Shown: positions 2,289 through 62,355 of the stretch, in pieces
Numbering within the stretch: the first letter of the stretch is position 1
Layout of the letters: each line of letters starts with the position of its first letter
Program-made: the position numbers and the translations under genes
The notes under the pieces: model-generated
Told to the model about the DNA's origin: nothing
The model's database searches: none
The model's input: only the letters and a program-made list of their open reading frames with translations
IMG/VR virus record: IMGVR_UViG_3300032087_004763
Coordinates: 62,001-126,000 of that record
Source of the DNA: a virus
Length of the DNA stretch: 64,000 nucleotides
Direction: 5' to 3' (one strand)

Positions 2289-5200
2289 TTATCCTCCAAA
2301 TACGATTGCCATGGCGATTGCTTTACCGGTAGTTACTCCGCTCTCTTGTCTCGCTTGGACATAAGCAGAGTCAACAAGCCCACTGACTTGTCCTGAGTCT
2401 AAACCTTTACCACCAGGAATATTGAATACTGTTAGAACGTCATCTGAATCCGCACCGGTCACAAGAGTTACTGATGTACCATTTGTTGCTGAATAATCAT
2501 CACTATCTACCAACAAGACACCGTTTAAGAATACGGCAACAGTGTTAGCGTTATAGCTTAATGAGTTTCCATTGTTATCATTTCCGCTAAATGATGTTGT
2601 ATTAGCTGAAGTAACGGTGTATGCAAATTGTGTTAATCCAGCGTCTCCTTGAATTATATTTCTAACGTCTGCAGAATCTAAACCGCCAGCAGTAACAGTA
2701 ATTGTTTTAGTTGCACCAGTACCTGATGCAGTTACTCCTGAACCCACAAAGTTAAGTGTAGTCGCAGCAGTAGAAAGCGAACTACCTTCTTCTTGTACCG
2801 TAAGCGACGATCCACCACCGCCACCACCAAATGTACCAGTAGGTAATCTATCAGAATCAATTGTACCTGTTACAATGTCACTAGCTGATAACACCGGGAT
2901 TCTAGCGGAATCAAATGTTCCTGATGTAATTTTAGAAGTAGGTAAATTTGGTATTGCCGATGTGCCAAGCGCTGCTACGAAAGCTGCATCAACATCAGCT
3001 GTGATGATACTACTAACTCGTACAGAATCTACAAAGTCTGTATCAATAACTGGTAGTTGAGATGTAAGTGCTAGTGTCCCGGTTGTAGTTGGTAATGTAA
3101 TATCTACATTTCCAGAATAATCACTATGTGCAGCAGACTTTAATCTTGTTCTATGTGCATTGGAAACTTCACAATAGAAGTCTGCGTACGCGACACTACC
3201 AGTACCTGTCCTGATTGTGATTCCGCCATCTTGTACAGTAACACCACCAGTTGATCCATTGCCATCAACTGTTAACACCGAGTCATCAATTAGACCTCTT
3301 AAAAACGTATTTGTGACTCGTGCATCAATTAATGTGTTAGTTTCTGCGGAATCAACAAAGTCTGTTCCAAGAGTCGGTATAGTAGGTGTATTACTAAAAT
3401 TAGTGTAATCAAGATAATATGATCCAGCCTGTCCACTTAATTTATTAGCGTTATCGGTTGGTGGTATTCTAGCTGAATCAATTGTGCCGGATGTAATGTC
3501 GCCAGCGGCTAACGCAGGAATGCGTGCTGAGTCCATAGTACCAGACGTAATGTCTGCTGCAGCTAGATCAGGTATTCTTGCCGAGTCAAATGTGCCTGAT
3601 GTAATTTTACTCGTAGGTAAATTAGGTATCGCTGACGTACCAAGAGCTGCAACAAAAGCAGCGTCTACGTCAGCAGTAATTATGGAACTAACACGAGCTG
3701 AGTCAACAAAGTTAGTGTCAATTGCTGGAATTGTTGGTGTATTTGTAAAGTTGTTGTAATTTAAATGATAGGCACTATTTTGACCACCCAGAGTATCAGC
3801 ATCAATTGTTAATGCGTTAATAAATGATGCATCAACATCTGCGGTGATAATCGAACTTACCCTAGCTGAATCAACAAAATCTGTGTCGACAGCAGGTATT
3901 GTTGGCGCACCAGTCAATGACGCGTAGGCAAAATCTTGTCTTAGTCTAACATGAGCTGAGTCTATTAACGCTATAGTTTCAATTGAGTCTAGCAATAATT
4001 GAAGAGCAACACTTGAGTCAATTGCATTTGCGGTAATTAACTTAATGGCCTCAGCTGAATCAATAAAGCTATTTCCAAGTGATGGTATTGTAGGTGTATT
4101 GCTGAAATTATTATAGTTTAAATGATAAGCGCTATTCTGGCCACCAAGAGTATCAGCATCAATCGTTAATGCGTTAATGAATGACGCATCAACGTCTGCG
4201 GTGATAATAGAACTAACACGAGCAGAGTCAACAAAGTCTGTGTCAACCACCGGTATTGATGCTGTGAATGTAATAGTATCTGTACCAGCATTTGTTGTAA
4301 TAGCAACACCACTACCGACAAGTGTTAATGTATCTGCTGTTGTGTCTGCTACTACATCACTTTGACCAGCTACCGAGATCGTTTTAAAAATCGGATCAGT
4401 CCCAGAGCCAGAAGCTTGTCGAGCTTGTACATAGGCTGAGTCAACTAATCCGATGACTGCTGCGGAATCAATACCACTACTTCCGCCTGACCCTCCACTC
4501 TGGCCAGGAGAGCCGCCTGACCCTCCACCAAATGTACCTGCAGGCAGTCTGGCTGAATCGATTGTGCCTGATGTAATGTCACTAGCTGATAACACCGGTA
4601 TTCTGGCTGAATCAAAGATTCCAGAAGTAATCTTCGATGTCGCAAGATTCGGTATAGCACTAGTTCCTAATGCAGCAACGAATGCAGCATCGACATCAGC
4701 TGTAATAATAGAACTAACTTGCGCAGAATCAATGTCACTTGATCCTCCACCACCGGTAGTAAATGTCCCTACAGGCAATCTGGCCGAATCAATAGTACCG
4801 GTAACGATATCAGAAGCACTCAGCCCTGGAATTCTAGCTGAATCGATTGTGCCTGATGCAATATCAGTAGCAGCTAATACTGGTATCCTTGCTGAATCAA
4901 GTGTTCCTGAATTAATTTGGCCTGCGCTAATTGATTTGTTAGTTAAAGTATCGGTAGAACTCGCAGTAATATAACTACCGAGATCACTGATCTGACTCTC
5001 AGTAATGCTCAAGCTTGCTTGATGTTGTGTTACATTACTAGCAGCAATTCTAGCATCAGCAAATGTGCCCGATGTGATTTTAGAAGTAGGTAAGTTTGGT
5101 ATCGCTGATGTACCAAGGGCTGCAATAAACGAAGCATCGACATCGGCCGTGATAATTGCACTTACACCAGCAGAATCTGGGAAATCAACGGTTGTGTACT

Positions 5201-53235: not shown

Positions 53236-53793
53236 ATGGCAAATCTATTTCAGAAATTAGAGATCGAAGCTTTTAGAGCTGGTATTACTCCAAGGACAAA
53301 AGAATCTATGGCTTGGTTCCGTCAAAAGGCAACCGAGTTAGGTCGTATTGGACCAAATACAGTGATGAATGATGATGCAATAACGATGAAAACAAATGTC
53401 GATACAACATCGTTGAAGGGCTTAGACCAGCCACTTGGTAATATGTACATGTATTACTATGATCCAAAGCATAAAGAAACGCTTCCATACTATGATAGGT
53501 TCCCATTAATCATCATGTATGGTAAAGCAAAGGGTGGGTTTTATGGCCTCAATCTTCATTATATGGCACCGCCTCTTCGAGCAAAGGCTCTTGATGCAAT
53601 TCTTGGAGACGGATCATTACCAGGTAAATATGTCAAACCGATGATTAAACATTATTTGTTCGAACACGTAAAAAGTAGATTTGCTTTAGTAGATAAACCA
53701 GAGTGGGAGATTGCTACCTTTTTACCATTAGCACAATGGGAGAAAGCAAGGGCGAGTACAGTTTATGCTGAATCAAGACGGAAAATGAGATAA
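53236..53793 (+). CDS. Unknown conserved protein of the gp4-gp54 interval
   Basis: 185 residues, basic, mixed alpha/beta: LFQKLEIEAFRAGITPRTKE, then MNDDAITMKTNVDTTSLKGL, PYYDRFPLIIMYGKAKGGFY, and YGLNLHYMAPPLRAKAL. It lies just before gp54 and joins that run with a one-base overlap. Proteins of this type occur beside gp54 in marine T4-like phages. A DNA- or baseplate-binding role is possible. No ribosome site is seen at the start. Confidence 0.6.
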   Translation: MANLFQKLEIEAFRAGITPRTKESMAWFRQKATELGRIGPNTVMNDDAITMKTNVDTTSLKGLDQPLGNMYMYYYDPKHKETLPYYDRFPLIIMYGKAKGGFYGLNLHYMAPPLRAKALDAILGDGSLPGKYVKPMIKHYLFEHVKSRFALVDKPEWEIATFLPLAQWEKARASTVYAESRRKMR

Positions 53794-54455
53794 TGGCAAG
53801 TATTAACGAACTAAAGGCAATGGCCTCTACAAAGCTTGGTTTCGCGAGGTCAAATAACTTTCTAGTTGAGCTTCCGCAACTAGGATCCAATCCATTTGGA
53901 AGACTTGCCGGGTTCATACCATCTGTTCCAGGTCTGACGCCTGATGCAGTTGCATCGACAAGAGAACTTAATGTTCTCTGTAAAAATGCACAAATACCAG
54001 GAAAACAAATTCTTTCGCAAGATCGTAGAATCGGTATGATCTTTGAGAAGGTTGCATACGGATACGCGGTTGGCGATGTAAGTCTTTCATTCTATATGTT
54101 AAATGATTATAGTGTTATGAACTATTTTGATACGTGGAAGAAATCAGTGGTTGATGAACAAAACCTTACAGTCGGTTACAAGAAAGATTATGCTAAGCCG
54201 GTAAAAATTCATCAATTAAGAAAACCGCTAAAAACTATAGGTAGAAATCTAGGACCAATCTCTGTTGACATTGGCCTCGGTTCTGGAAGTGTATATAGTG
54301 TTGAGTTAGTAGATGCATTTCCGACTACTATTGGTCAGATAGATTTTTCGAATGAGCTAGACGGATTAGTTGAATTGACCGTACAGCTCTCATACACAAA
54401 TCACGTGAGAATTAAACCCTCTCAAAACTTTATTAATGTTGACTTTGGTTTCTAA
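53793..54455 (+). CDS. 54: Baseplate tube initiator gp54
   Basis: 220 residues (T4 gp54 has 320). Together with gp48 it forms the base on which the tail tube starts. The N-terminus INELKAMASTKLGFARSNNF is followed by NAQIPGKQILSQDRRIGMIF and VGDVSLSFYMLNDYSVMNYF, typical of tube-fold proteins. It begins one base before the end of the gene at 53236 and precedes gp26. Confidence 0.82.
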   Translation: MASINELKAMASTKLGFARSNNFLVELPQLGSNPFGRLAGFIPSVPGLTPDAVASTRELNVLCKNAQIPGKQILSQDRRIGMIFEKVAYGYAVGDVSLSFYMLNDYSVMNYFDTWKKSVVDEQNLTVGYKKDYAKPVKIHQLRKPLKTIGRNLGPISVDIGLGSGSVYSVELVDAFPTTIGQIDFSNELDGLVELTVQLSYTNHVRIKPSQNFINVDFGF

Positions 54456-54466
54456 GGAGATATATT

Positions 54467-55183
54467 ATGGCTTTGCCACAGTTAAACACATCACCGTCGT
54501 ATACGACTAAGGTGCCGTCGACCGGTCAAGACGTTAACTTTAGACCGTTTTTAGTAAAAGAGCAGAAGGTTCTTCTGATTGCATATGAATCACAAGACAA
54601 ATCTCAAATCATTAAAGGCATCCTAGATACATTAGACGCGTGTTTAGAAACAGACATCGATGTTCACGCACTAACTACGTTTGATGTTGACTATCTTTTT
54701 ACTCAGATCCGTGGAAAGTCAGTAGGTGAGAGAGTCGACGTCAAGTTAAAGTGTCAGAGCTGTGAAGAGTATAACGATATTCAGATTGACCTAGATGACA
54801 TTCAACCTCCTACAGCTAAAGATTCAACTAGGATTATCGAGCTAAATCAAACTGTTTCGCTGCAATTAAAGTACCCAAGCTATTCTTTGTTCCTTCGCAA
54901 TCCTAGCATGTTAAACTCCGAATCTAGTACCGAAACAATCATGGAAGTCATTATCTCTTGTATGCATGCGGTACTAACGAATGATGAAAACATTCTGTTA
55001 AAGGACGAGCCAAGAGAAGAGGTTGTAAAATTCTTAGACTCAATGACAGCTGGTCAATTTGAAATGATCACGGATTTTGTAGAAAAAATGCCAGCTATGA
55101 ACAAAAAAGTAAACTATGCTTGTGTTAAGTGTGGAGAAAAGAACGAGAAGGTATTGAGTGGCCTTGACGATTTTTTATCATAG
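54467..55183 (+). CDS. 26: Baseplate hub/tail assembly chaperone gp26
   Basis: 238 residues (T4 gp26 has 208). The start LPQLNTSPSYTTKVPSTGQD then VNFRPFLVKEQKVLLIAYES, and helical middle match the T4 gp26 baseplate family. Two CxxC pairs (C96/C99 in KCQSCEE, C219/C222 in ACVKCGE) probably bind zinc. GGAG precedes the ATG at seven bases. Its end contains the T TTT TTA slippery site that would shift ribosomes into the gp51-like frame. Confidence 0.88.
   Translation: MALPQLNTSPSYTTKVPSTGQDVNFRPFLVKEQKVLLIAYESQDKSQIIKGILDTLDACLETDIDVHALTTFDVDYLFTQIRGKSVGERVDVKLKCQSCEEYNDIQIDLDDIQPPTAKDSTRIIELNQTVSLQLKYPSYSLFLRNPSMLNSESSTETIMEVIISCMHAVLTNDENILLKDEPREEVVKFLDSMTAGQFEMITDFVEKMPAMNKKVNYACVKCGEKNEKVLSGLDDFLS
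55171..55177 (+). other. Slippery heptamer T TTT TTA at the end of gp26
   Basis: In the gp26 frame the codons are GAT TTT TTA TCA TAG; the heptamer is placed exactly as needed for -1 slippage, two codons before the stop. The -1 frame then stays open for 64 codons to TGA at 55369-55371. Confidence 0.75.
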
Positions 55184-55371
55184 GCCTCTCACATGAATCA
55201 TTGGAAAACTATTATCAGACTAACTTTCAGTTGATGCAGCATCATCGATACTCGTTAGCCGATATAGAAGGAATGATGCCGTGGGAGAGGGAGATTTATG
55301 TAATGCTTTTAATCAACCATATAAAAGAAGAGAACGAGAGAGCTAAACAAAATGGCAGCAATTACTCTTGA
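55177..55371 (+). CDS. 51: gp51-like segment, likely -1 frameshift extension of gp26
   Basis: The frame after the slippery site encodes 64 residues: SHESLENYYQTNFQLMQHHR, then YSLADIEGMMPWEREIYVML. It has no ATG near its start; the first ATG is at 55234 (45 residues left) with no clear ribosome site. In marine T4-like phages a small gp51-type hub assembly gene lies here. Reading it as a fused gp26-gp51 protein of about 301 residues (54467-55371) explains the lack of a start. It overlaps the tape measure start by 20 bases. Confidence 0.65.
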   Translation: MIGLSHESLENYYQTNFQLMQHHRYSLADIEGMMPWEREIYVMLLINHIKEENERAKQNGSNYS

Positions 55372-61957: not shown

Positions 61958-62355
61958 TATACCATCTCCTCTAAGTAAGCATAAGCTTCGTATGGAAGAG
62001 GCTCGCAGTCATCTGGAAGGCCTTTCTTCATTTCGGCCTCATAAGCCTCGGCCTCTTTCTCGAGCTCATACTGCTCGTTAAGCTGCTTAACGATATTATC
62101 GTAAGTAGCCTTTAACTCCTCGAGAGTCTTCTCGTCCCAATCGAAACGTAAGCGGCAGCCATACAGCTCCTTTGAAGCATCGCTGATATTGTTGATCAAC
62201 GAGTTACGCTCGAAGTCCTCGACCGTAAAGATGCCCATCTCGTTCCAATGCGAGATATCGTCAGTCCACTTTGACATCCACAGACCAGGCTCCTGAGCCA
62301 TCATCACGTCTGCGTGAGCATTCAAAGACTCGATGTGCTGAAGTAATGTAGTCAT
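61957..62355 (-). CDS. Acidic helical protein of unknown function
   Basis: About 132 residues from the ATG at 62355 (MTTLLQHIESLNAHADVMMA), which has GAGAGG eight bases upstream; two ATGs shortly before it have poor spacing. The protein is acidic and helical, ending LNEQYELEKEAEAYEAEMKK and YEAYAYLEEMV. Early expression is suggested by the promoter at 62385-62413. No family is recognised. Confidence 0.6.
   Translation of the reverse strand: MTTLLQHIESLNAHADVMMAQEPGLWMSKWTDDISHWNEMGIFTVEDFERNSLINNISDASKELYGCRLRFDWDEKTLEELKATYDNIVKQLNEQYELEKEAEAYEAEMKKGLPDDCEPLPYEAYAYLEEMV

Follow-up and report, generated by a model that had tools for sequence, protein, structure and literature searches.

A probable programmed -1 frameshift in the gp26/gp51 tail assembly chaperone gene of marine T4-like phages, and conserved RNA stems downstream of its slippery site

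Introduction

In lambda, the short gpG and its -1 extended form gpGT reportedly act as tail assembly chaperones, and a frameshift of this kind is said, in work attributed to Xu, Hendrix and Duda in 2004, to be general among such genes. The lambda slippery heptamer is G GGA AAG. In the dnaX gene of E. coli, the signal combines an upstream Shine-Dalgarno-like site, the slippery heptamer A AAA AAG and a downstream stem.

For the T4-like phages, gp26 and gp51 are tail assembly chaperones according to Vladimirov, Gautam and Davidson (2022, Virology 566:9-15), as that work is represented in two papers that cite it (PMC10885494, PMC12846349). The PRFect paper (PMC10885494) cites it for T4-like phages in which one chaperone gene is short and another is long and fused. 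The paper on phage Adele (PMC12846349) cites it for poly-T frameshift signals in the TAC-N genes of T4-like phages; by these accounts, the core interpretation given below is already known. The Adele paper also describes the TAC of the Vandenendeviridae and Andersonviridae, where a conserved GTTTTT ends TAC-N, the -1 frame is open and the tail is annotated as a separate gene. These are other families with another motif, and the available text of that paper mentions no covarying downstream RNA structure.

Here we consider one locus in a 64,000-nucleotide stretch of a viral DNA record (IMG/VR record IMGVR_UViG_3300032087_004763, positions 62,001 to 126,000), which we call the window. The locus shares with lambda gpG/gpGT the arrangement of a short protein and a -1 long form between the tube and tape measure genes, while the heptamer differs (T TTT TTA in the window). 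The three-part layout of dnaX is shared by the family of the window's gene, though the upstream element is weak in the window itself, with the differences that T TTT TTA stands in place of A AAA AAG and that the stem of the window's clade encloses 84 nt. Judged from comparative sequence analysis, the locus is very probably a marine T4-like tail assembly chaperone gene that gives two proteins by programmed -1 ribosomal frameshifting.

Results

The slip site and its reading frames

The window reads GAT TTT TTA TCA TAG at 55169-55183 in the frame of a 238-codon open reading frame, which places T TTT TTA in the X XXY YYZ phase near the 3' end of gp26 (Table 1). A TGA at 55165-55167 closes the -1 frame directly upstream of the slip site; the frame is then open as far as the stop at 55369-55371, giving 66 codons when the two Phe of the slip are counted with the 64 that follow, and shares 20 nt with the 488-codon open reading frame beginning at 55352. 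The first ATG in the -1 frame is at 55234. The original prediction had described a perfect, correctly phased heptamer at the end of gp26, a -1 frame open for 64 codons, a 20-nt overlap with the start of the tape measure gene and the lack of an ATG near the start of that frame; all four descriptions are confirmed, though a TTG precedes the ATG, at 55201. How often does such an arrangement arise in these genes? The main open reading frames of the window, 20,011 codons in all, contain 71 XXXYYYZ heptamers in phase, and only that of gp26 is followed by 50 or more open -1 codons.

Table 1. Features of the gp26 locus, in coordinates of the window
Feature	Position	Strand	Basis or remark
Tail tube or tube-initiator-like protein	53793..54455	+	phrog_45 tail tube, E=1.7e-30; directly upstream of gp26
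gp26 homologue, short form (TAC-N, "G"), 238 aa	54467..55183	+	PF12322, E=5.6e-57; phrog_150, E=6e-60
Upstream Shine-Dalgarno-like element	55148..55168	+	family-enriched; window copy weak
-1 frame extension (gp51-like C-terminal tail, "T")	55168..55371	+	slippage entry at 55171; peptide 55171-55368
Slippery heptamer T TTT TTA	55171..55177	+	in phase; 3 nt (one codon) 5' of the 0-frame stop TAG
Downstream RNA stem, 5' arm	55185..55195	+	7 nt 3' of the heptamer; covariation and folding energy
Downstream RNA stem, 3' arm	55280..55290	+	covariation and folding energy
Probable tape measure protein (gp29-like), 488 aa	55352..56818	+	weak match to phrog_1272 tail length tape measure, E=1.2e-6

Gene neighbourhood and homology

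The order of genes in the window is tube-like protein, gp26, -1 tail and probable tape measure. A tube gene sits directly 5' of gp26 in the relatives too, where it is annotated as "baseplate tail tube initiator" or "tail tube", and the whole 142-kb record contains one PF12322 gene. A profile search with the -1 peptide finds phrog_634 ("baseplate hub assembly catalyst", gp51) with E=4.7e-29. It also finds phrog_150, to which gp26 belongs, at profile positions 231-281, just beyond the gp26 part at positions 5-232; since phrog_150 covers both, in-frame fusions of the two parts are already present in the databases.

AF2 models gp26 with confidence (mean pLDDT 91.3), and the model matches baseplate hub (gp26) proteins in a library of viral structures with E values down to 1.4e-17, while a fold search of the PDB with the same model gives no significant match. 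Among the best 50 PDB matches listed, the entry of highest probability (0.28 and 0.38) is the HK97 tail assembly chaperone (gp13, 2OB9), at E values of 0.94 and 2.8 and TM-scores of 0.20-0.40 that are not significant; the likeness of the predicted fold to this chaperone is suggestive only. Sequence searches of the PDB with gp26 and with the tail gave nothing significant. The window's gp26 carries two CxxC pairs (CQSC and CVKC), a possible zinc ribbon, one of which is lost in some relatives.

Conservation of the slippery run

The original prediction had proposed testing for a heptamer conserved among marine T4-like phages. TTTTTT is found in phase in an initial set of relatives from viral contigs, and then in 252 of the 252 loci where the tail could be located, a set obtained by searching with the -1 peptide, which favours sequences beginning FF. 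Some of these loci overlap or share a contig, and 165 are non-redundant at 90% nucleotide identity. Both wobble positions of the run are always T in 56 sequences that are less than 80% alike in protein, compared with about 70% T in the codon usage of the same genes; treating the 56 as independent gives a log10 P of about -20, and because related sequences are not independent such P values are optimistic. Seven T's occur in 41 of the 165 non-redundant sequences.

Named phages agree with this picture. The run is in phase in 13 of 14 sampled (ten reached through gp26 similarity and four marine ones through the tail), and in nine of the ten chosen by gp26 similarity alone; they include phages of Rhizobium, Agrobacterium, Stenotrophomonas, Pseudomonas, Vibrio, Aeromonas and Desulfovibrio. 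The lone exception is Vibrio phage D504, whose gp26 ends CTT TTC AAG TAA TGG (L095, stop at 4558), with CTT TTC in place of the T run and an ATG that shares bases with the stop. The -1 frame tail is kept, and D504 has possibly switched from slippage to reinitiation.

Coding signal and start codons in the -1 frame

If the tail is reached by slippage, where does its coding constraint begin? Upstream of the slip site, the differences between sequences concentrate at the third positions of the gp26 frame, and from +12 on (plus signs number positions so that +14 is the first base of the 5' arm in Table 1) at the third positions of the -1 frame. By codon position of the -1 frame, the figures are 0.336/0.278/0.636 for +12 to +36 and 0.288/0.178/0.523 for +36 to +63. 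The first common -1 ATG, at +63, lies downstream of this switch. Among the 165 non-redundant sequences, 93 have no -1 ATG upstream of +60, and 50 have no ATG, GTG or TTG there that could start the frame. The constraint and the missing starts together argue for translation of the tail from the slip site onward; in the window, an independent start fails to account for it. Phages of Rhizobium, Stenotrophomonas and Vibrio (L090, L091 and L093) combine the T run with a TGATG or TAATG, in which the gp26 stop shares bases with an ATG, and their tail could thus be reached in either of two ways.

A long-range RNA stem in the window's clade

In the clade that includes the window (LSH, 95 non-redundant sequences), positions +14..+24 pair with +109..+119, and the start of this stem falls within the spacing of 5-9 nt looked for at -1 frameshift sites. 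Counted in 84 sequences, 90.3% of the cells of the stem pair, and 68 double-changed cells are found against 29.6 in shuffles, with none of 500 shuffles reaching as high. Among all column pairs tested, 14-119 ranks first in corrected mutual information and 17-116 fourth; the two share one antidiagonal and consist mostly of synonymous sites. When changes are placed on a tree of the upstream gp26 sequence, 14-119 co-changes on 7 branches where 1.4 are expected, with weaker support for 17-116 (4 shared branches, 1.7 expected) and 23-110 (7, 4.6 expected); in a newly fetched set of sequences the pair 17-116 falls short of significance.

Folding energy points the same way. Over +12 to +126 the LSH sequences average -28.9 and their synonymous codon shuffles -18.5 (mean z -2.7, p=3e-17), and the control stretch from +126 to +171 has no excess over its shuffles. 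The relative L081, whose gp26 protein is identical to that of the window, has -32.6 against -19.5. RNAalifold found no consensus structure on the mixed-clade alignment A1, so that the long-range stem rests on the pair counts, the mutual information, the co-change on the tree and the synonymous shuffles. Dinucleotide z-scores for short downstream stretches of single sequences are weak, with means of -0.8 to -1.7, since the pairing spans a longer distance. An Rfam search with the element gave no match beyond one chance-level hit. On this comparative evidence, folded RNA beginning 7 nt past the heptamer probably stimulates slippage.

Other RNA architectures and the upstream signal

The P-SSM2-like clade (MAH) breaks the long stem and has instead a local 10-bp hairpin, +13..+22 with +32..+41, which is 95.4% paired and exchanges U-A, A-U and G-C at one pair. 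Its energy is -13.5, where synonymous shuffles give -3.3 (mean z -4.4). In 159 of the 165 sequences, a strong stem is predicted to begin between +7 and +26. In four members of LSH (L031, L036, L043 and L065) an apparent local hairpin, for example GGGCTCTCTCACGAGAGCC, replaces the long-range stem and is perhaps a third architecture.

Upstream of the slip site, the match to the anti-Shine-Dalgarno sequence across the family is -6.18 kcal/mol against -4.88 kcal/mol for synonymous shuffles (p=7e-7), and none of eight control windows has a comparable excess. The copy in the window itself is weak, at -4.0 kcal/mol.

The two genes of T4

The gp26 and gp51 of T4-like phages belong to the same family as the window's gene (PF12322/phrog_150). 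T4 has two complete paralogous PF12322 genes, gp26 (208 aa) and gp51 (249 aa), where the window's phage has one together with the proposed -1 frameshift. The conceptual fusion from the window aligns with T4 gp51 over the length of the T4 protein and across the junction (pairwise E=7e-7), and T4 gp51 therefore corresponds to the full-length long form; T4 gp26 ends GAG TTC TTT GAG TTA CTA TAA, with no T run. By this alignment, T4 gp51 is a full-length G+T protein and a paralogue of gp26, and T4 would make its short and long forms from two genes, the window's phage from one.

T4-type gp51 matches 1,339 phage records, mostly from enteric hosts and Acinetobacter. The Straboviridae contain both arrangements, Vibrio phage QD01 and Aeromonas phage AsFcp_2 having a single gene with the T run. 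We infer that frameshifting came first and that the two-gene arrangement was derived from it. In phage RB43 (L262, 1501-2794), a full-length gp51-like gene is directly followed by a gp26-like gene, both 3' of a tube-initiator-like gene; the long form thus precedes the short form on one strand, where the two genes of T4 diverge.

Discussion

Under the frameshift reading, most ribosomes would read gp26 to its stop and give the 238-aa short form, and a minority, shifted back by one base on the heptamer, would read 64 more codons and give a long form of about 300 aa that carries the gp51-like tail. On the model of lambda gpG/gpGT, coating of the tape measure protein would probably fall to the short form and recruitment of tube subunits to the tail part. 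What the sequences themselves show is a conserved slippery site, coding constraint in the -1 frame, the protein homology and RNA pairing that is conserved as well; we infer from there to the slippage itself, its efficiency and the chaperone function.

Could the -1 frame instead be a small gene of its own, gp51, whose translation begins at TTG 55201, at ATG 55234 or by reinitiation once gp26 has ended? It is annotated in this way in most database records, with the genes of relatives starting at an internal ATG or TTG; a -1 frame ATG overlaps the gp26 stop in the distant phages RL38J1, BUCT608, QD01 and D504, and P-SSM2-like phages have a conserved ATG just past the stop. The window, however, has no -1 ATG before 55234, and constraint on the -1 protein begins at the slip site, which a later start would not explain. 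Together with the 50 of 165 sequences that have no usual start codon, and with an invariant T run and an RNA stem that a separate gene leaves unexplained, this makes the separate gene improbable. We consider it slightly less probable still that the two frames are fused by transcriptional slippage, in which mRNAs of altered length would join them without slippage of the ribosome. The run of six T's, or of seven in the sequences counted above, is indeed a homopolymer, but six bases are short for slippage of the polymerase, the run is kept exactly in the phase of a ribosomal heptamer, and the selected downstream fold and the upstream Shine-Dalgarno-like signal fit ribosomal slippage better. As T4 and its close relatives carry both parts in one frame, in gp51, one might also ask whether a one-base sequencing error has split a single gene; the chance of this is practically nil, as the identical split at the identical codon recurs in 165 non-redundant loci and in isolate genomes of many genera, which refutes it.

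Programmed -1 frameshifting of the G/GT type, as originally predicted, is thus the reading supported by the conservation of the T run, the -1 coding signature, the missing starts, the gene order and the homology to gp51. The accompanying assignment of gp26 as G and gp51 as T holds for the -1 tail of the window and fails for T4, whose gp51 is the full-length G+T. The proposed unification of these T4-like factors with the general tail chaperones agrees with the sequences and is not new, having been published by Vladimirov et al. (2022), as its citing papers report; a literature search on gp51 with frameshifting returned no paper on the window's site beyond those. Covarying RNA stems were not found described in the literature, where Vladimirov et al. 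(2022) is represented through its citing papers, and the downstream RNA architectures are the likeliest part of the finding to be new. We think it likely, if with less assurance than for the frameshift itself, that at least two conserved stimulator architectures, the stem with arms about 95 nt apart and the 10-bp hairpin, have been swapped between lineages while the T run stayed fixed, the T4 clade dropping frameshifting in favour of two genes.

The arrangement is present in hundreds of records of cyanophages, pelagiphages, vibriophages and rhizobiophages. In many of these the tail is listed as a gene of its own, a "baseplate hub assembly catalyst" (gp51), which probably has no existence as such; the best reading of gp26 and gp51 in such records is a single gene that yields two products. 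The two complete genes of T4, set against the single frameshifted gene of most relatives, offer a natural comparison of two ways to set the ratio of the chaperones, and the covarying RNA stems can be mutated directly, which makes them accessible to reporter assays.
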